Assembly: GCF_000337595.1 (NCBI RefSeq)
Contig: NZ_AOIL01000067.1
Location: 65,203-129,202, forward strand
Direction: 5' to 3'
Origin: Natrialba taiwanensis DSM 12281
GTDB lineage: Archaea > Halobacteriota > Halobacteria > Halobacteriales > Natrialbaceae
DNA length: 64,000 nucleotides
Every line of letters starts with the position of its first letter. Positions within the stretch are counted from its first letter, which is position 1. Position numbers and translations under genes: made by a program. The notes under the pieces were generated by a model. The model made no database searches, was not told where the DNA came from, and saw only the letters and a program-made list of their open reading frames with translations. Shown piece by piece: positions 18,276-28,118 of this stretch.

Positions 18276-19799
18276 ATGAATCGTACGTCGGGCGATAGGC
18301 AGCTGCCGGGGGCAGTTGACCGGGAGGGTACGGGCGAAGCCGACACCAACGCCGGTACTGGTGCTGATGCTAATGCGGATATCGATACCGACGCCAGGTC
18401 GAACTCCCGTTCTCCTCCTGTGCCGGCTCTCACCCCATCGTCTCTCCGTAGCTGTAGTCGTGAACTCACAGACGTTTCCTTCGGTGCGATCCTGGATACC
18501 GACGACGAGGCCCGCATCCAGTGGGCCACCCCCGACGGATTGGAGGTTGTCGGCCGCGGCGTCGCCGCCCGATTTACCGCGCACGGCCCAGACCGGTTCG
18601 AGACCGTCCGTGAACAGGCCGCTCGGACGTTCGCCGAACTCGATCACGATGGGCCGACTGTCGCCCGTCCGCGCGCGTTCGGCGGGCTCTCCTTTCACGA
18701 GAGCCACGACGGTCGCGACAACGATACCGCTTCGAATACACCTTGGAGCGGCTTCGCCGCCGCCTCGTTCGTCATCCCTCGCGTTCTCGTCACCCGCTGT
18801 GACGAGACCACCTGGCTCACCGCCGTCGCCCGCGACGCCGAGACGGCAACCGAGCGATTGCACTCGTGGTACGATCGTCTGGCCGATTTCCCGGCGATGC
18901 GTCCGAGCGGGTCGGCCCCCGGTGTCGCCGCGACCGAGCGCACGACCTCGCCCGCGGTGTGGACCGGCCAGGTCGAACACGCACTCGATCGAATCGAGAC
19001 GACGCCGCTCACCAAGGTCGTTCTCGCCCAGTCGCTGTCGGTCTCGCTCGACGAACCGATCGATGTGCCGGCGACGCTCGAACGCCTGCGCCGACAGTAT
19101 CCGAACTGCTACCGGTTTCTCGTCGATCACGACGCCGATGCCAGTGGAACGTTCTTCGGTACACCGCCGGAGCGGCTCGTCTCGAAACGCGGCGACCACG
19201 TCGAAACCGAGGCGCTTGCCGGCTCCGCCCCTCGCGGCGAGACGCCCGAAGCCGACGAGGAGTTCGCCGATCAACTCCGGGACAGCGAGAAGGTCCAGCA
19301 CGAACACGAACTCGTCGCCGACGCGATCCGCGAGCAGTTGACACCGCTCGCGCGCGAGTTGACCATCGACGAGCAGACGGTTCGCCGACTCGCGACGATC
19401 CAGCACCTGCAGACGCCGATCGACGCGACCCTCGACGGCGACCGTCACGTCCTCGAACTCGTCGAGGCGCTCCACCCGACCCCCGCAGTCGGCGGCATGC
19501 CGCCCGACGACGCCTGGGAGACGATCCGCGAGACGGAGACCTTCGACCGCGGCTGGTACGCCGCTCCGATCGGCTGGTTCGATGGAGACGGCGACGGCGA
19601 GTTCGCGGTCGGTCTCCGGTCGGGCGTCGCGACCGACGAGACGGTTACGCTCTTTGCGGGCAACGGCCTCGTCGCCGACAGCGATCCCGCGGCCGAGTGG
19701 GACGAAGTACAGTTGAAATTCCGGCCGATTCTGGACGAGTTACAGCCTGCGGGCGCAGACGGGATCGAGGACATCACCGGCGATGTGCACTCACAATGA
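18276..19799 (+). CDS. menF: Isochorismate synthase MenF
   Basis: Converts chorismate to isochorismate, the first committed menaquinone step. The 507-residue protein has the chorismate-binding domain in its C-terminal half: LTKVVLAQSLSVSL, the GTPPERLV-type segment (FFGTPPERLVSKRGDHVETE), GSAPRG, DEQTVRRLATIQHL and HPTPAVGGMP, all typical of MenF/EntC. The N-terminal 45 residues are an Asp/Thr/Ala low-complexity leader (TNAGTGADANADIDTDA) that may be an expansion or an overlong start. Its stop codon overlaps the menD start by four bases, so the two are translationally coupled. Confidence 0.93.
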   Translation: MNRTSGDRQLPGAVDREGTGEADTNAGTGADANADIDTDARSNSRSPPVPALTPSSLRSCSRELTDVSFGAILDTDDEARIQWATPDGLEVVGRGVAARFTAHGPDRFETVREQAARTFAELDHDGPTVARPRAFGGLSFHESHDGRDNDTASNTPWSGFAAASFVIPRVLVTRCDETTWLTAVARDAETATERLHSWYDRLADFPAMRPSGSAPGVAATERTTSPAVWTGQVEHALDRIETTPLTKVVLAQSLSVSLDEPIDVPATLERLRRQYPNCYRFLVDHDADASGTFFGTPPERLVSKRGDHVETEALAGSAPRGETPEADEEFADQLRDSEKVQHEHELVADAIREQLTPLARELTIDEQTVRRLATIQHLQTPIDATLDGDRHVLELVEALHPTPAVGGMPPDDAWETIRETETFDRGWYAAPIGWFDGDGDGEFAVGLRSGVATDETVTLFAGNGLVADSDPAAEWDEVQLKFRPILDELQPAGADGIEDITGDVHSQ

Positions 19800-21667
19800 G
19801 CGCACCCAACCGCGCGACCCTCTGGGGTCGCATCCTCGTCGATGAACTCGCTGCGGGCGGGCTGGAGGCGGTCTGTCTCGCCCCCGGCAGTCGATCGACG
19901 CCGCTGACGGTCGCGTTCGCCGAGCATCCCGATATCGAGGTCTATTCGCACTTAGACGAGCGGTCGGCGGCGTTTTTCGCCCTCGGGCGCGCCCGCCGCA
20001 CCGGCGAGCCAACGGCGCTAGTCTGTACCTCCGGGACGGCAGCCGCGAACTTCCACCCGGCGGTAATCGAGGCCGATCAGGCCCGCGTGCCGATGCTCGT
20101 CCTCACGGCCGACCGCCCGCCTGAACTCCGCGATAGCGGTGCAAACCAGACGGTCGATCAGGTTGAACTCTACGGCGACGCCGTGCGCTGGCATGCCGAC
20201 CTTCCGCTTCCGGAAGCCAACGAGCGAACGGCCCGCAGCCTCCGCACGACGGCCGCCCGCGCTCTGCTTGAAACGACCGTCTCCGAACCCGGCCCCGTCC
20301 ACCTCAACTGTCCTTTCCGCAAACCGCTCGACCCGATCGAAACGACCGGCAGCGAGGCCGTCCCCGACGAGTTCGGCGAGACGCTGGCCGGGACGGGTCG
20401 GGGCGGTCCGTTCGTCGAGACCGCCGCGGGGCGACACGCGAGCGAACCCGCCGCCGACGAACTCGCGCTCGATACCCTTCGAACCGCGCTCGAGACCGCG
20501 GACAGACCGCTGCTCGTCGCCGGCCCCGCCGACCCGGTGACACCGTCAGCGGGTGAACTCGATCCTGCGGACGTTGTCGCCGTCGCCGATGCGGTCGGCG
20601 CGCCGGTGCTCGCGGATCCGCTGTCGACTGTTCGGTTCGGGTCGCACGTCGAATCTAGTCCGTCTGAAACCAGGACGATCTACGGCGGATACGACGGCTA
20701 TATCGACTCTCTGATAGCTCCAGACATGAACTCGGACTCGGATCCGGACTCGGAACCAGACCCCGAACCGGATGTCGTCGTCCGGTTCGGTGCCTCACCG
20801 ACCTCGAAGCGGCTCCGGCACGCGCTACGAGACGCCGACGCGCGCCAGTTTCTGCTCGATCCCGTCGGCGCGTGGCGCGAGGCGACGTTCACGGCCACCG
20901 ACCTTCTCGCCGCCTCGCCCGGCTCTGTCTTCGAGAGTCTTGCAGCGTCTCTCGGGGAGTCCACCACTACGAACCCCTGGCGGGCGCGATTCGACGCAGC
21001 AGAGCGGACCCACTGGGATCTCCGCGACGACGCGTGTACGACGAACTCGCTCGAGTCCGAGCCGTTCGAGGGTGCCGTCCTCGCATCGGTCTTCGAGGCC
21101 GCCCCCGATCCGGCGACGATCTTCGTCTCGAACAGCATGCCCGTTCGGGACGCCGACCGGTTCGCCCGCCCGCAACCGACCGATCTGACCGTGCTCGCGA
21201 ACCGCGGTGCGAGCGGTATCGACGGGATCACGAGTTCGGCACTCGGCGCCGGCAGTGCGACCGACGACCCGCTCGTGCTTGTGACGGGCGATCTTGCGTT
21301 CTATCATGATTCGAACGGACTGCTCGCGCTCGAGCGCTGCGGCGTCGACGCGACGATCGTCCTGCTGGACAACGACGGCGGCGGTATCTTCCACGAACTC
21401 CCGATCGAGGCGGTCGATCCGCCGTTCACGTCGCAGTTCAAAACGCCCCACGGCCTCGCGTTCGATGCGCTCGAAGAGCTGTACGATCTCGAGTTCGAGC
21501 GCGTCGAGCCGGCTGCGTTTGAGGGTGCCTACCGACGGTCGCTCGCGAGCGACGGGACGCAGGTGCTGTCGGTGTCGTTCGGCGCGGACGCGAGCCACCG
21601 GCGGCGAGCTGAACTCGATGAGCGAGTGCACACTGCGGTCGCGGGGACGGATGATTCAGGGCCGTAG
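19796..21667 (+). CDS. menD: SEPHCHC synthase MenD
   Basis: The thiamine-diphosphate enzyme that joins isochorismate and 2-oxoglutarate. The 623-residue protein has the N-terminal domain signature LAPGSRSTPLTVAFAEHPDI with the catalytic Glu region DERSAAFFALG, and the ThDP/Mg motif TGDLAFYHDSNGLL with LLDNDGGGIF near residue 520. A striking low-complexity acidic insert, NSDSDPDSEPDPEPD, built from hexanucleotide units, sits near residue 310 between domains. Its last 12 bases overlap the convergent J-domain gene. The start ATG at 19796 overlaps menF. Confidence 0.94.
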   Translation: MSAPNRATLWGRILVDELAAGGLEAVCLAPGSRSTPLTVAFAEHPDIEVYSHLDERSAAFFALGRARRTGEPTALVCTSGTAAANFHPAVIEADQARVPMLVLTADRPPELRDSGANQTVDQVELYGDAVRWHADLPLPEANERTARSLRTTAARALLETTVSEPGPVHLNCPFRKPLDPIETTGSEAVPDEFGETLAGTGRGGPFVETAAGRHASEPAADELALDTLRTALETADRPLLVAGPADPVTPSAGELDPADVVAVADAVGAPVLADPLSTVRFGSHVESSPSETRTIYGGYDGYIDSLIAPDMNSDSDPDSEPDPEPDVVVRFGASPTSKRLRHALRDADARQFLLDPVGAWREATFTATDLLAASPGSVFESLAASLGESTTTNPWRARFDAAERTHWDLRDDACTTNSLESEPFEGAVLASVFEAAPDPATIFVSNSMPVRDADRFARPQPTDLTVLANRGASGIDGITSSALGAGSATDDPLVLVTGDLAFYHDSNGLLALERCGVDATIVLLDNDGGGIFHELPIEAVDPPFTSQFKTPHGLAFDALEELYDLEFERVEPAAFEGAYRRSLASDGTQVLSVSFGADASHRRRAELDERVHTAVAGTDDSGP

Positions 21668-22702: not shown

Positions 22703-22890
22703 TGTCCATCCGTAGCCTGTTAGGAATCAAATATGTACTGGATGCTCCTCGATATCCCCGTTCTGAACTCGGTGCACCGACGCTCCGAGCGGTCGTTTTC
22801 GACCGGATAAACAAGTAATCGCTATATAGAATTGTGGCTAGCTCGAGCAGTACTACACGGTGTACGAGCTGCTCGCGACAGTCACCGAAA

Positions 22891-22933
22891 CTATTATCTT
22901 GTCGTAAACTACCTAGAATTCTGTGGTTTACGA
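22891..22933 (+). promoter_or_regulatory. bioB promoter with BirA-box-like operator
   Basis: The inverted repeat TCGTAAACT (22902-22910), 14 bases, GGTTTACGA (22925-22933) closely resembles the BirA box known from bacteria and archaea (TTGTAAACC, 14-16 bases, GGTTTACAA): 7 of 9 and 8 of 9 positions match. A TATA-like CTATTATC with an upstream GAAA lies at 22887-22898, putting the transcription start at the GTG codon at 22923. Bound repressor would cover the start site, giving simple biotin-dependent repression. Confidence 0.75.
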
Positions 22934-24047
22934 GACTGGAAACCGAACGGTCGACGAGGCGGTCGCCACCGTCCTCGCCGGCGGTGAACTCGACCGGACC
23001 GAGGCACTTGCCCTCATCGCTCAGCCGGTCGACGTGCTCGCACCGGCGGCGGATGCCGTCCGGGCGCACTTCGGTGACGACACGGTCGACGCCTGTAGCA
23101 TCGTCAACGCGAAGGCGGGAAACTGTGCGGAGGACTGCGGGTTCTGCGCGCAGTCGGTTCACTTCGATACCGGGATCGACACCTACGGTCTCCTCGATCC
23201 GGACCGAATCCTTGCCGCGGCAAAGCGGGCGGAGCGGGACGGCGCACAGCGGTTCGGCATCGTCGTCGCCGAGAAGGGCGTGAGTAAGGAGCAACGACCA
23301 GCGGAGTGGGCGGATGTAATCCGTGCGATCCGTCTCGTTCGCGACGAGACCGCAGTCGAGGTCGATGCGAGTTTAGGGATTCTCACCGAGGAAGAAGCCG
23401 GAATCCTGGCCGAGGAGGGGATCAATCACTATAATCACAACATCGAGACCGCCCCGCAGTACTTCCCCGAGATCGTCTCGACGCATTCCTTCGAAGATCG
23501 GGTGAAGACGCTCGAACGCGCGAAGGCAGCGGGAATGGATCTCTGTGCCGGCGTCATTCTCGGCATGGGGGAAGCACCGGCGGACCGGGTGGACGCCGCG
23601 CTCGCGCTCCGGGATATCGGCATTTCGTCGCTTCCGGTGAACGTTCTCAACCCCGTCGCGGGAACCTCGCTTGGTGACAAGTTCGGCGAGTCGGCGGCGA
23701 TTACGTCGACGGAGATCATCAAGACGATCGCCGTCTATCGGCTGTTACATCCGCGCGCAAGAGTTCGGCTGACGGGTGGTCGCGAGGTCAATCTCGACCG
23801 GGACGAACAGCACCGGCCCTTCGAAGCCGGAGCTGACGGGATGCTGACCGGGGACTACCTCACGACCGAGGGGCAGTCTCCCGGTGACGACCTCGAGATC
23901 GTCGAGCGAGCCGGTCTGCGGCCGAACATGGCGGCCAACGAGTTCGATCCCGAGGCGGTCAAATCGCGCGCCGGGGCGGACGACGATGACGAGGAAGCGA
24001 CGACGGCGGCCGGGAGCGCGACGAGCAATGCCGAAATGGGCGATTGA
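22923..24047 (+). CDS. bioB: Biotin synthase BioB
   Basis: Radical-SAM enzyme that inserts sulfur into dethiobiotin. The CAEDCGFCAQS motif supplies the three cysteines of the [4Fe-4S] cluster, and later motifs NHYNHNIETAPQYFP, GMGEAPADRVDAALALRDIG, NPVAGTSL and the Arg-containing RVRLTGGREVNL fit the family (the Cys/Arg ligands of the [2Fe-2S] cluster in bacterial BioB). The 374-residue chain has an acidic 40-residue C-terminal extension. It starts with GTG, 31 bases after a TATA-like box. First gene of the bioB-bioU-bioF-bioD operon, 6 bases from the next gene. Confidence 0.95.
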   Translation: MVYETGNRTVDEAVATVLAGGELDRTEALALIAQPVDVLAPAADAVRAHFGDDTVDACSIVNAKAGNCAEDCGFCAQSVHFDTGIDTYGLLDPDRILAAAKRAERDGAQRFGIVVAEKGVSKEQRPAEWADVIRAIRLVRDETAVEVDASLGILTEEEAGILAEEGINHYNHNIETAPQYFPEIVSTHSFEDRVKTLERAKAAGMDLCAGVILGMGEAPADRVDAALALRDIGISSLPVNVLNPVAGTSLGDKFGESAAITSTEIIKTIAVYRLLHPRARVRLTGGREVNLDRDEQHRPFEAGADGMLTGDYLTTEGQSPGDDLEIVERAGLRPNMAANEFDPEAVKSRAGADDDDEEATTAAGSATSNAEMGD

Positions 24048-24053
24048 CTGTCG

Positions 24054-25133
24054 ATGACCGAACTGCTAGACGAACACACAGCTACTGACAATCACAACAC
24101 GACGATGAACGAAATCAGATTCGCGGTACTGGGCACGGGAGGTATCGGCCGACGAACGCTCGAGGTATCGACGTACAGGGACGGATTGACGCCGGTTGCA
24201 GCCTGCGACCGTCACGGCGTCGCGATCGATCACGACGGGCTCGATGTAGACGAACTGCTCGCCGCCACGGAGGGGAACATCGCATCCGACGGGGGCGTCA
24301 CCCAAGTCAAGGAAACCGGTGAGCAGAAGGGTGTTGCGGCCTCGGCGCAGGCCGACCCGACTGCGACCCCGATCGACGATATCATCGCCGAGAGCGACGC
24401 CATCGATGCGGTCCTGATCGCACTCCCGAATTTCGAGCACGAGTTCATCCCGAAGGTTGCGGACCGGTTCGTCGAAGCCGACTATTCGGGCGTTCTGGTG
24501 GACGTGCTCAAGCGCTCGCGGGTCATCGGCATGCTCGACGAGCGCGCCGACGCGTTCGCGGAGTGTGGCGTTACGTTCGTCTGCGGGGCCGGCGCGACGC
24601 CGGGACTGCTGACGGGCGCGGCGGCGCTTGCCGCCCAGTCGTTCGTCGAGGTCGAGGCGGTCGACATCTGGTGGGGCGTCGGACTCAAATCCGGCTACGA
24701 GGACAACCGAGGCACCGTCCGCGAGGATATCGCGCACTTGCCCGACTACGATCTCGAAACCGTTCGCGAACTGAGCGACGACGAGATCGAGGCGGTGATC
24801 GACGCCCACGACGGCGTGCTTGAGTTCCACGATATGGAACACGCCGACGACGTCTTGCTGGAGCGCGCCGGCATCTGCGAGGCGGCGGACGTGACCGTCG
24901 GCGGGATTCTCGATGTGACCTCGGACGAGAAACCCACGACGACGACCGTCGAGGTGACGGGGACCACGTTCGACGGCGAACGAGGGACCAACACCGTCGA
25001 ACTGGACGACGATACCAGCATGGCGGCAAACGTCAACGGGCCGGCGCTCGGCTACCTGAAATCCGCCGTTCGGCGGCACCGGGCGGGCGAGTACGGCGTG
25101 TTCGGCCCGGCCGAACTCCTGCCGCGATTCTAA
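24054..25133 (+). CDS. bioU: BioU-like enzyme (saccharopine-dehydrogenase-like) for DAPA formation
   Basis: A 359-residue NAD(P)-binding protein with a dinucleotide fold at FAVLGTGGIGRR. It lies between bioB and bioF, where an aminotransferase (bioA) would be expected; no bioA occurs in the window. The saccharopine-dehydrogenase-like fold is that of cyanobacterial BioU, which turns 8-amino-7-oxononanoate (KAPA) into diaminopelargonate by donating the side-chain nitrogen of one of its own lysines and so works once. A lysine in VLVDVLKRSRVIGM (about residue 153 from this start) is in the right region to be that lysine. An internal ATG at 24105 (MNEIRFAVLG) may be the true start. The assignment rests on fold and operon context. 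Confidence 0.75.
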   Translation: MTELLDEHTATDNHNTTMNEIRFAVLGTGGIGRRTLEVSTYRDGLTPVAACDRHGVAIDHDGLDVDELLAATEGNIASDGGVTQVKETGEQKGVAASAQADPTATPIDDIIAESDAIDAVLIALPNFEHEFIPKVADRFVEADYSGVLVDVLKRSRVIGMLDERADAFAECGVTFVCGAGATPGLLTGAAALAAQSFVEVEAVDIWWGVGLKSGYEDNRGTVREDIAHLPDYDLETVRELSDDEIEAVIDAHDGVLEFHDMEHADDVLLERAGICEAADVTVGGILDVTSDEKPTTTTVEVTGTTFDGERGTNTVELDDDTSMAANVNGPALGYLKSAVRRHRAGEYGVFGPAELLPRF

Positions 25134-25143
25134 TGATCCGACG

Positions 25144-26385
25144 ATGACAGGCGACCTGAACTCGCGAACCGACGACGACGCTCCGGAGGACACCTGCGGG
25201 TTCGCCCTCGCTGACCGGCTCGCGGCGCGCGACGCTCGCGGTCTCCGCCGGGATCTCCGACCGATCGATCGCGTCGCCGGCCGGGCGCGGATGGCGGCGG
25301 ACCCGGGCCGCGGCCGTCCCATCTACGGCGATGAACAACTCGTCTTCGGGTCGAACAATTACCTCGGCCTGGCGCGCGACGACCGCGTCGTCCGAGCCGC
25401 GGAGGAGGCGGCCGCCGCGGTCGGCACCGGCGCGGGCGCGAGCCGTCTCGTGACCGGGGATACGGGCCTCCACCGCGCGCTGGAACGCGACCTCGCCGAG
25501 ACGAAAGACACCGAGCGTGCCCTCCTTTTCTCCTCCGGGTACGCCGCCAACGTCGGCACCGTCGCGGCGCTCGACCCGGACGTGATCTTCTCCGACGAAC
25601 TCAACCACGCGAGCATCATCGACGGCTGTCGGCTCGCCGACGCCGAGACGGTCGTCTACGACCACTGCGATAGCGGATCGCTCTGCGAGGCGATGGCCGC
25701 TCGACGGGACAAGCGCGACGCCGGCGAGTCGTGGCTCGTCGTGACGGATTCGGTGTTTAGCATGGACGGCGACGTGGCACCGCTTTCGGCGATCTGCGAC
25801 GCGGCCGACCGGCACGAGGCGTGGGTAATGGTTGACGAAGCTCACGCGACCGGCCTCTACGAGGGCGGCGGCATCGTCCAGCGCGAGGGTCTCGGCGACC
25901 GAGTGCAGGTTCAGGTGGGAACGCTCTCGAAGGCGCTCGCCAGCCAGGGCGGCTACGTCATCGGAAGCACCCACCTCGTCGAATACCTGCTCAACGCGGC
26001 GCGGTCGTTCGTCTTCTCGACCGGCCTCGCGCCGCCGGCGGTCGGGGCCGCCCGCGAGGCACTTCGGATTGCGCACGAGGGGACGCGCCCTGCGCGACTG
26101 TGGAACACCGTCGACCGCCTCCGCGACGGCCTCGAATCGCTCGGGTACGACGTACTGGGCGAGACGCAGATCCTGCCCGTCGTCGTCGGCGACCGTGACG
26201 ACGCGCTCGCGCTCGCCGACCGGCTTTCGGACCGCGGTATCGTCGCACCGGCGATACGCCCGCCGACGGTTCCCGCGGGGACGAGCCGCATTCGCATCGC
26301 ACCCACGGCCACGCACACTGCATCCGAACTCGAGCGCTGTCTGGACGCCTTCGAACGCGCGGGACGGGAGCTTGATCTGGTATGA
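25144..26385 (+). CDS. bioF: 8-amino-7-oxononanoate synthase BioF
   Basis: PLP enzyme condensing pimeloyl thioester with alanine to KAPA. The 413-residue protein contains FGSNNYLGLA, the substrate-binding HASIIDGCRL, DEAHATG (about 231-237) and the PLP lysine in GTLSKALASQGGY (Lys about 263). These separate it from glycine C-acetyltransferase only weakly, but the operon with bioB and bioD makes BioF clear. It starts 10 bases after bioU and its end overlaps bioD by four bases. Confidence 0.93.
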   Translation: MTGDLNSRTDDDAPEDTCGFALADRLAARDARGLRRDLRPIDRVAGRARMAADPGRGRPIYGDEQLVFGSNNYLGLARDDRVVRAAEEAAAAVGTGAGASRLVTGDTGLHRALERDLAETKDTERALLFSSGYAANVGTVAALDPDVIFSDELNHASIIDGCRLADAETVVYDHCDSGSLCEAMAARRDKRDAGESWLVVTDSVFSMDGDVAPLSAICDAADRHEAWVMVDEAHATGLYEGGGIVQREGLGDRVQVQVGTLSKALASQGGYVIGSTHLVEYLLNAARSFVFSTGLAPPAVGAAREALRIAHEGTRPARLWNTVDRLRDGLESLGYDVLGETQILPVVVGDRDDALALADRLSDRGIVAPAIRPPTVPAGTSRIRIAPTATHTASELERCLDAFERAGRELDLV

Positions 26386-27089
26386 GTGCCGGGATGAAGA
26401 CGCCCGAGAACGCGGTCGCCGTCGTCGGAACCGATACCGGCGTCGGCAAGACCGTCGTCACAGCGGGGCTCGTCGGCTGGCTTCGTGAGGAGGGCTACGA
26501 CGCGCGTGCGATCAAACCCGTCCAGACCGGGTATCCGCCGGACGACGACGCGGCGTTCGTCGCCGAGGCCTGTGGAACCGACCGGGCGGCGACGTGTTGT
26601 CGTCGCCTCGAACCGGCGCTGGCTCCAGCCGTCGCCGCTACTGTCGCGGACGAACCGCTCTCGTACGACTCGCTTCTCGAGAACGTCGCCGCTGAACTCG
26701 ACGCGGCGACCCCGGGCGTCGTCGAGGGCATCGGCGGACTCCGCGTCCCGCTGGCGGACGGCCGCGACGTGCTCGATCTGGTCGCCGACCTCGGCGTGCC
26801 CGCGGTGGTCGTCGCCCGGTCCGGATTGGGAACGCTAAACCACACCGCGCTGTCGGTATCGGCGCTTCGCCGTCGCGGTGTCGACGTAACCGGGATCGTC
26901 CTGAATCAGTACGACGGCGCGTCGCTCGCGGAGCGGACGAACCCCGACGCGCTCGCGGAGATGGTCGACTTCCCGATCCACACGCTGCCGTCGTTTTCCG
27001 TCGCGGAGCCGTCGGCCGCCGTCTCTGCCGTCAGTGCCGCGCTTCCGCGGTCGATCTTCGACGAAATTCTCCCCACGGACCGCGTGTAA
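26382..27089 (+). CDS. bioD: Dethiobiotin synthetase BioD
   Basis: ATP-dependent carboxylation and ring closure of diaminopelargonate to dethiobiotin. The 235-residue protein has the P-loop GTDTGVGKTVVTAGL, the substrate segment AIKPVQTGY and the GIGGLRVPL segment equivalent to the family's GAGG motif. Start at 26382 overlaps bioF (ATGA); an internal ATG four codons later is possible. Last gene of the biotin operon. Confidence 0.93.
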   Translation: MSAGMKTPENAVAVVGTDTGVGKTVVTAGLVGWLREEGYDARAIKPVQTGYPPDDDAAFVAEACGTDRAATCCRRLEPALAPAVAATVADEPLSYDSLLENVAAELDAATPGVVEGIGGLRVPLADGRDVLDLVADLGVPAVVVARSGLGTLNHTALSVSALRRRGVDVTGIVLNQYDGASLAERTNPDALAEMVDFPIHTLPSFSVAEPSAAVSAVSAALPRSIFDEILPTDRV

Positions 27090-27215
27090 CCGCGAGTTCA
27101 CCGTCCGGGCCGTTGCACGCTGACCCGCGACGGGTGCGACGGGTGCGACGGGTTGCAGACGAGACGACCGGCGAGAACCGATACTATATCAGGACTCGTC
27201 CCCCACACTCGGGCG

Positions 27216-28118
27216 ATGGTTTCGGAACTCTTCGACGAGGACCGCTGGGAGCCGATCGACGAGTTCGACTTCCGCGATCTCACCTATCACCGGGCGGTCG
27301 ACTCCGGGACGGTGCGGATCGCTTTCGACCGGCCCGACGTGCGAAATGCCTTCCGGCCGGGAACGGTGGACGAACTGTACGACGCGCTGGATCACGCCAA
27401 GCGCCAGACGGACGTGGGCTGTATTCTCCTGACGGGGAACGGGCCGTCCTCGAAGGACGGCGGCTGGGCGTTCTGTTCCGGGGGCGACCAGACGGTTCGT
27501 GGCGAGGACGGCTACCAGTACACGGGCGAGGACGAGGAGAGCGAAGCCGCGCGCGCCTCGGAGCAGGGACGCCTGCACATTCTCGAGGTGCAGCGGCTCA
27601 TCCGCCATATCCCCAAGGTCGTCGTCTGCGTCGTACCGGGCTGGGCCGTCGGCGGCGGGCACTCGCTGCACGTCGTTTGCGACCTCACGCTCGCGAGCGA
27701 GGAGCACGCGAAGTTCCTCCAGACCGACCCCGACGTGGCGAGCTACGACGCCGGCTTCGGCTCGGCCTACCTGGCCAAGCAGATCGGCCAGAAGAAGGCC
27801 CGCGAAGTGTTCTTCCTCGGCAAAACGTACAGCGCCGAGGAGGCGGCAGAGATGGGCATGGTCAACGAAGCGGTGCCCCACGCTGAACTCGAGGAGACGG
27901 CCCTGGAGTGGGGCGAGCGCATCAACGCCAAGAGCCCGACGGCGATGCGGATGCTGAAGTACGCCTTTAACATGACCGACGACGGGATGGTCGGCCAGCA
28001 GGTGTTCGCCGGCGAGGCGACCCGGCTGGGGTACATGACCGACGAGGCCGCGGAGGGCCGAGACGCCTTCGTCGAGGGCCGCGAACCGGAGTTCGACGAG
28101 TTCCCCTGGCACTACTGA
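27216..28118 (+). CDS. menB: 1,4-dihydroxy-2-naphthoyl-CoA synthase MenB
   Basis: Crotonase-family enzyme that cyclises o-succinylbenzoyl-CoA. The 300-residue protein shows GWAFCSGGDQTVRGEDGYQY and VVPGWAVGGGHSLHVVCDL, forming the oxyanion hole typical of MenB, then TDPDVASYDAGFGSAYLAK and the C-terminal EGREPEFDEFPW seen across MenB proteins. The start at 27216 (MVSELFDEDRW) is chosen over upstream in-frame codons because of family length. A copy of the dispersed repeat begins 6 bases after its stop. Confidence 0.95.
   Translation: MVSELFDEDRWEPIDEFDFRDLTYHRAVDSGTVRIAFDRPDVRNAFRPGTVDELYDALDHAKRQTDVGCILLTGNGPSSKDGGWAFCSGGDQTVRGEDGYQYTGEDEESEAARASEQGRLHILEVQRLIRHIPKVVVCVVPGWAVGGGHSLHVVCDLTLASEEHAKFLQTDPDVASYDAGFGSAYLAKQIGQKKAREVFFLGKTYSAEEAAEMGMVNEAVPHAELEETALEWGERINAKSPTAMRMLKYAFNMTDDGMVGQQVFAGEATRLGYMTDEAAEGRDAFVEGREPEFDEFPWHY

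Follow-up and report, generated by a model that had tools for sequence, protein, structure and literature searches.

The second gene of the biotin operon of the haloarchaeon Natrialba taiwanensis is, very probably, a full-length bioU, the product of which takes the 7,8-diaminopelargonate step in place of BioA. BioU is established in cyanobacteria, and represents a rare type of enzyme. The operon lies in the 64,000-nucleotide stretch of DNA that was analysed, termed here ‘the window’, and positions refer to the window unless another contig is named. The features discussed are these:

22885–22897, + strand: archaeal BRE/TATA-like promoter element, 26–38 bases upstream of the bioB start (promoter-column conservation)
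22902–22933, no strand: predicted BirA operator, TCGTAAACT-N14-GGTTTACGA, an inverted repeat overlapping the GTG start of bioB
22923–24047, + strand: bioB, biotin synthase (TIGR00433, 337 bits; cut-off 225)
24105–25133, + strand: bioU, probable BioU-type (S)-8-amino-7-oxononanoate carboxylating dehydrogenase, 342 aa (phmmer, NF047886, Foldseek, conserved start)
24132–24149, + strand: dinucleotide-binding motif GTGGIG of bioU (sequence; glycines conserved in 162 of 164 aligned rows)
24510–24512, + strand: codon AAG for the predicted sacrificed lysine, K136, equivalent to K124 of Slr0355 (alignment)
24840–24842, + strand: codon CAC for H246, equivalent to H233 of Slr0355 (His in 164 of 164 aligned rows)
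25144–26385, + strand: bioF, 8-amino-7-oxononanoate synthase (TIGR00858, the best-scoring family; 405 bits, marginally below its own cut-off of 426)
26382–27089, + strand: bioD, dethiobiotin synthase (TIGR00347, 119 bits; cut-off 83)

The operon and the identity of its second gene

The preliminary description of this DNA had reported a gene order of bioB, a saccharopine-dehydrogenase-like gene, bioF and bioD. All four open reading frames were found as claimed, and BioB, BioF and BioD match curated models. The reported spacings of 10 and −4 bases between the later genes also hold; that of 6 bases behind bioB does not, as it hinges on an ATG at 24054, to which the bioU reading frame extends upstream of 24105. 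About 120 distinct relatives share a protein start at M-[D/N]-x-[I/V], which corresponds to residue 18 of the longer reading frame (position 24105) and opens the conserved N-terminal block M-[D/N]-x-[I/V]-x-F-A-V-L-G-T-G-G-I-G-R. Because no sequence is conserved upstream of this start among the relatives compared, and because Natrialba asiatica has no in-frame start codon upstream of it, the true start is probably 24105 and not 24054. This would give a protein of 342 amino acids with its reactive lysine at position 136, and a bioB–bioU gap of 57 bases. The window is part of contig C67 of the genome, and related loci occur in N. aegyptia (95% identity) and N. asiatica (96%). The flanking genes, assigned by Pfam only, encode a MenD-like TPP enzyme (18866–21667) and a MenB-like member of the enoyl-CoA hydratase family (27153–28118), and so, to judge by sequence, the biotin operon seems to lie between menaquinone genes.

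Among solved structures, the closest relative of the second product (phmmer) is Slr0355, the BioU of Synechocystis (PDB 6IR4; E 2.1e-80, residues 14–359). Four distinct Synechocystis BioU sequences were matched, with E-values of 2.1e-80 to 6.7e-79, and the next match, glutamate dehydrogenase, came at 0.018. Pfam gave weak, generic dehydrogenase matches and nothing else. NCBIfam gave a single match, to the BioU model NF047886 (E 7.7e-93). At 311 bits, this match reaches roughly half of the equivalog cut-off of 600 bits, which counts against the assignment; the cut-off, however, governs naming and is no biochemical criterion. No haloarchaeal protein searched attains it, and NCBI would thus not apply the name BioU to these proteins automatically. 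A structure was predicted with AlphaFold2 from 20 haloarchaeal sequences (two rows from plasmid records were left out); the model has a mean pLDDT of 82 and a pTM of 0.81. Compared by Foldseek, it matches five BioU crystal structures with E-values of 1e-36 to 1e-38, TM scores of 0.84–0.85 and about 40% identity; the TM score is 0.85 for 6K36 and 6IR4, and the sixth match falls to E 1e-10. ‘Saccharopine-dehydrogenase-like’ is a loose label, since the nearest folds, BioU aside, are the diaminopimelate and lysine dehydrogenases. These enzymes (meso-diaminopimelate and L-lysine dehydrogenase) are distant fold relatives of BioU, with TM scores of about 0.5 and about 15% identity and, unlike BioU, they are catalytic oxidoreductases of free amino acids.

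Catalytic residues and the proposed reaction

The two segments singled out earlier, GTGGIG and VLVDVLKRSRV, are both present in the product, and the lysine of the second falls exactly on K124 of Slr0355. For a wider comparison, 183 haloarchaeal loci were reduced to 163 distinct sequences, in an alignment of 164 rows. Every row but one has lysine in the K124 column, and every row has histidine in the H233 column. The exception (locus L190) is one half of a frameshifted gene, and VLVDVLKRSRV can be read in the other half; with frameshifts checked, all 163 unique homologues keep the lysine. A second frameshifted gene (L204) retains it, too. The crystal structures, by their PDB titles, include K124A mutants (6ITD and 6K37), an H233A protein conjugated with DAPA (6K38) and the wild-type DAPA conjugate (6K36). 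A haloarchaeal BioU in which the lysine is replaced was sought among the 163 unique sequences: no replacement was found, the sole apparent exception being the frameshifted gene above.

The Natrialba protein and Slr0355 have in common K124 and H233, the GxGGxG, GxGATPGLLT and DMEHADD blocks, the fold, and the absence of bioA. They differ in that the Natrialba protein carries, near residues 60–75, an acidic insertion that varies in length, scores below the NCBIfam equivalog cut-off, and is encoded in an archaeal host, by an operon that has the order bioB-bioU-bioF-bioD and a BirA-type operator.

As summarised in two papers (PMC12915131 and PMC7133116), Synechocystis BioU condenses 8-amino-7-oxononanoate with its own K124 in an NAD(P)H-dependent reaction, and the conjugate is then carboxylated; an NAD(P)+-driven step releases DAPA-carbamic acid, and the lysine amine is lost irreversibly. 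Conservation of the residues, the fold and the genetic context makes the same chemistry the best explanation here. By analogy, the side-chain amine of K136 would condense with the 8-amino-7-oxononanoate supplied by BioF; the imine would be reduced by NAD(P)H to a covalent conjugate, and this would be carboxylated with CO2. An NAD(P)+-driven step would then free diaminopelargonate carbamate, which BioD would close to dethiobiotin for conversion to biotin by BioB. As the lysine nitrogen would depart with the product, each BioU chain would work once. We infer this chemistry and the single turnover, as well as the repression discussed below; the price of one protein per biotin molecule is, likewise, reasoned from the Synechocystis enzyme. 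The cellular need for biotin is small, and so such a cost is likely to be bearable.

The Natrialba protein might instead be a BioU-like enzyme that turns over many times, the lysine being restored in each cycle or replaced by an outside amine, but this we consider unlikely. The haloarchaeal branch, at about 40% identity to the cyanobacterial enzyme that has been tested, is distant enough for turnover to have altered, and a class-III aminotransferase situated between bioU and bioF in one Haloarcula clade is a possible helper. An outside amine donor would not need the lysine and H233, however, and both are invariant in all of the homologues read; the aminotransferase gene, moreover, is antiparallel, and its occurrence is limited to some five related species. 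A particular form of this idea—that the haloarchaeal protein has been freed from the suicide mechanism and become a recyclable protein cosubstrate, the K136 nitrogen being put back, by an aminotransferase for example—has, in our estimation, a very slight chance of being correct.

BioA and BioK, the aminotransferases of model TIGR00508, occupy the same place in the pathway as BioU and belong to an unrelated family of PLP enzymes. The genome, a draft that is 97.85% complete, was searched by family profile and by pattern. The claim that the window has no bioA proved correct, in that its contig contains no match to the bioA family, and nor does the genome contain any above the TIGR00508 cut-off of 405 bits. 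Several uncharacterised class-III aminotransferases are encoded, a point against the BioU reading. The BioA model finds twelve class-III aminotransferases, all far below this cut-off (the best at 231 bits), and the five best score higher with models for ArgD, diaminobutyrate, acetylornithine and other aminotransferases. The pathway includes BioF, BioD and BioB, and no known maker of diaminopelargonate other than BioU; the family search found no BioW in the genome. A bioA could be missing from the draft, although none was found across the class: BioA exceeded the cut-off in 0 of 392 Halobacteria genomes, and did so in six control genomes, E. coli and B. subtilis among them. A further acyltransferase of the BioF/Kbl type, scoring 400 bits, is encoded elsewhere in the genome (contig C42, 223513–224559) with no bio genes beside it; counts of ‘BioF’ in genomes that lack BioU are inflated by such proteins.

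The twelve matches do leave room for the idea that a class-III aminotransferase encoded elsewhere makes diaminopelargonate and that the operon gene has another role. We regard this as highly unlikely, given that all twelve are below the cut-off, that other families are a better match for the five scanned, that none is encoded at the operon, and that BioU retains its catalytic residues and is encoded within a biotin operon that is itself conserved. The proposal that BioU stands in for BioA is supported, then, by full-length homology, the predicted fold, the aligned lysine and the absence of a bioA above the cut-off.

The promoter and predicted BirA operator

The consensus for BirA sites in bacteria, as given in PMC545781, is TTGTAAACC-[N14/15]-GGTTTACAA. 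At the start of bioB is a palindrome, TCGTAAACT-N14-GGTTTACGA, with exact 7-base arms; 0.12 matches would be expected by chance in the window, with two or fewer mismatches allowed. The strict form of the pattern occurs at one site genome-wide, at bioB. Among 149 unique haloarchaeal promoters the left half-site is near-invariant (G, T, A, A and C at −19, −18, −16, −15 and −14, each in 98–100%), and columns of the promoter are conserved also: CC at −38/−37, AA at −34/−33 and TTAT from −29 to −26. Since the right half-site lies in the codons for the N-terminus of BioB, the left half alone counts as independent evidence. Spanning the start of both transcription and translation of bioB, the palindrome is predicted to be a BirA operator; the bioB transcript is probably leaderless.

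A second BirA-like box, GAAAACC-N14-GGTTTACGA, occurs just before the ATG of bioY (locus L219, 1471–2106, − strand; genome contig C46), upstream of bioY and the probable transporter genes bioM and bioN (BioYMN). A pattern modelled on this box matches, genome-wide, only the site at bioB and that ahead of bioY. The biotin ligase of this organism has HTH_11, BPL and BPL_C domains, and its HTH_11 domain makes it, by anatomy, a repressor of the BirA type. From these sequence features, the biotin operon is probably repressed by BirA at the palindrome. Bacterial biotin operons regulated by BirA have the same half-sites, N14 spacing and bifunctional, HTH-bearing BirA as found here; in Natrialba, in contrast, the operator overlaps the start codon, and lies downstream of an archaeal TATA box. 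Repression by BirA would confine synthesis of the single-use enzyme to times of biotin shortage, and tight control of this kind would suit such an enzyme.

The operon might also be a decaying or silent relic, with biotin imported by BioYMN. BioY is present in the genome, and decay of bioU is seen in three relatives in which bioB and bioF are retained. In N. taiwanensis, on the other hand, the four genes are open and of full length, and the promoter and operator are conserved; we think it most improbable that the operon is defunct.

Distribution and significance

BioU occurs in 150 of the 392 Halobacteria genomes, and in 46 of the 86 genera. Thirty-two of the 33 named loci have the order bioB-bioU-bioF-bioD, the remaining one being without bioB only, in the stretch covered; and among 295 genomes drawn from the phylum, the same order is seen for every match listed. 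BioU is sometimes encoded on haloarchaeal megaplasmids (e.g. NZ_CP078064.1, CP031304.1, NC_019976.1 and Haladaptatus plasmids), where it is annotated ‘transcriptional regulator’ or ‘hypothetical protein’. Such labels in public records fit with scores below the NCBIfam cut-off. Phage genomes gave no match to BioU.

The neighbourhood varies in some lineages. In one Haloarcula clade, the class-III aminotransferase gene mentioned above lies antiparallel between bioU and bioF (L059, 6182–7516, − strand; also L054/L164, L168, L084 and L099); the Natrialba genome encodes two homologues of it (58% and 55%) elsewhere, and none at the biotin operon. In Halosimplex-like genomes (L062, L064, L066, L163, L171 and L204), the same position is occupied by a conserved gene of ~199 codons, the uncharacterised product of which contains the sequence MxxMEPFCEYCEFGGDRVYLLV. 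Three haloarchaea (L200, L202 and L201) have bioB and bioF, only relics of bioU, and no bioD in the stretch covered. What remains of bioU is about 50 C-terminal amino acids in L200, about 45 N-terminal amino acids in L202 and nothing in L201; bioU and bioD seem to have been lost jointly.

The idea of a haloarchaeal BioU is not new: a 2026 paper (PMC13336041) lists haloarchaea and some cyanobacteria as exceptions in late biotin synthesis and cites the BioU paper. The present analysis adds that the lysine is strictly conserved and that bioA is absent throughout the class, together with the corrected start and the predicted operator. With no recognisable bioA in 392 genomes, the route by which haloarchaea make biotin appears, from sequence, to be an enzyme that donates a lysine and is used once. 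The public annotation of haloarchaeal BioU is corrected, and a BirA regulon is predicted for haloarchaea. These organisms are genetically tractable, and so the claim that they spend one protein on each molecule of the vitamin is open to testing in vivo.
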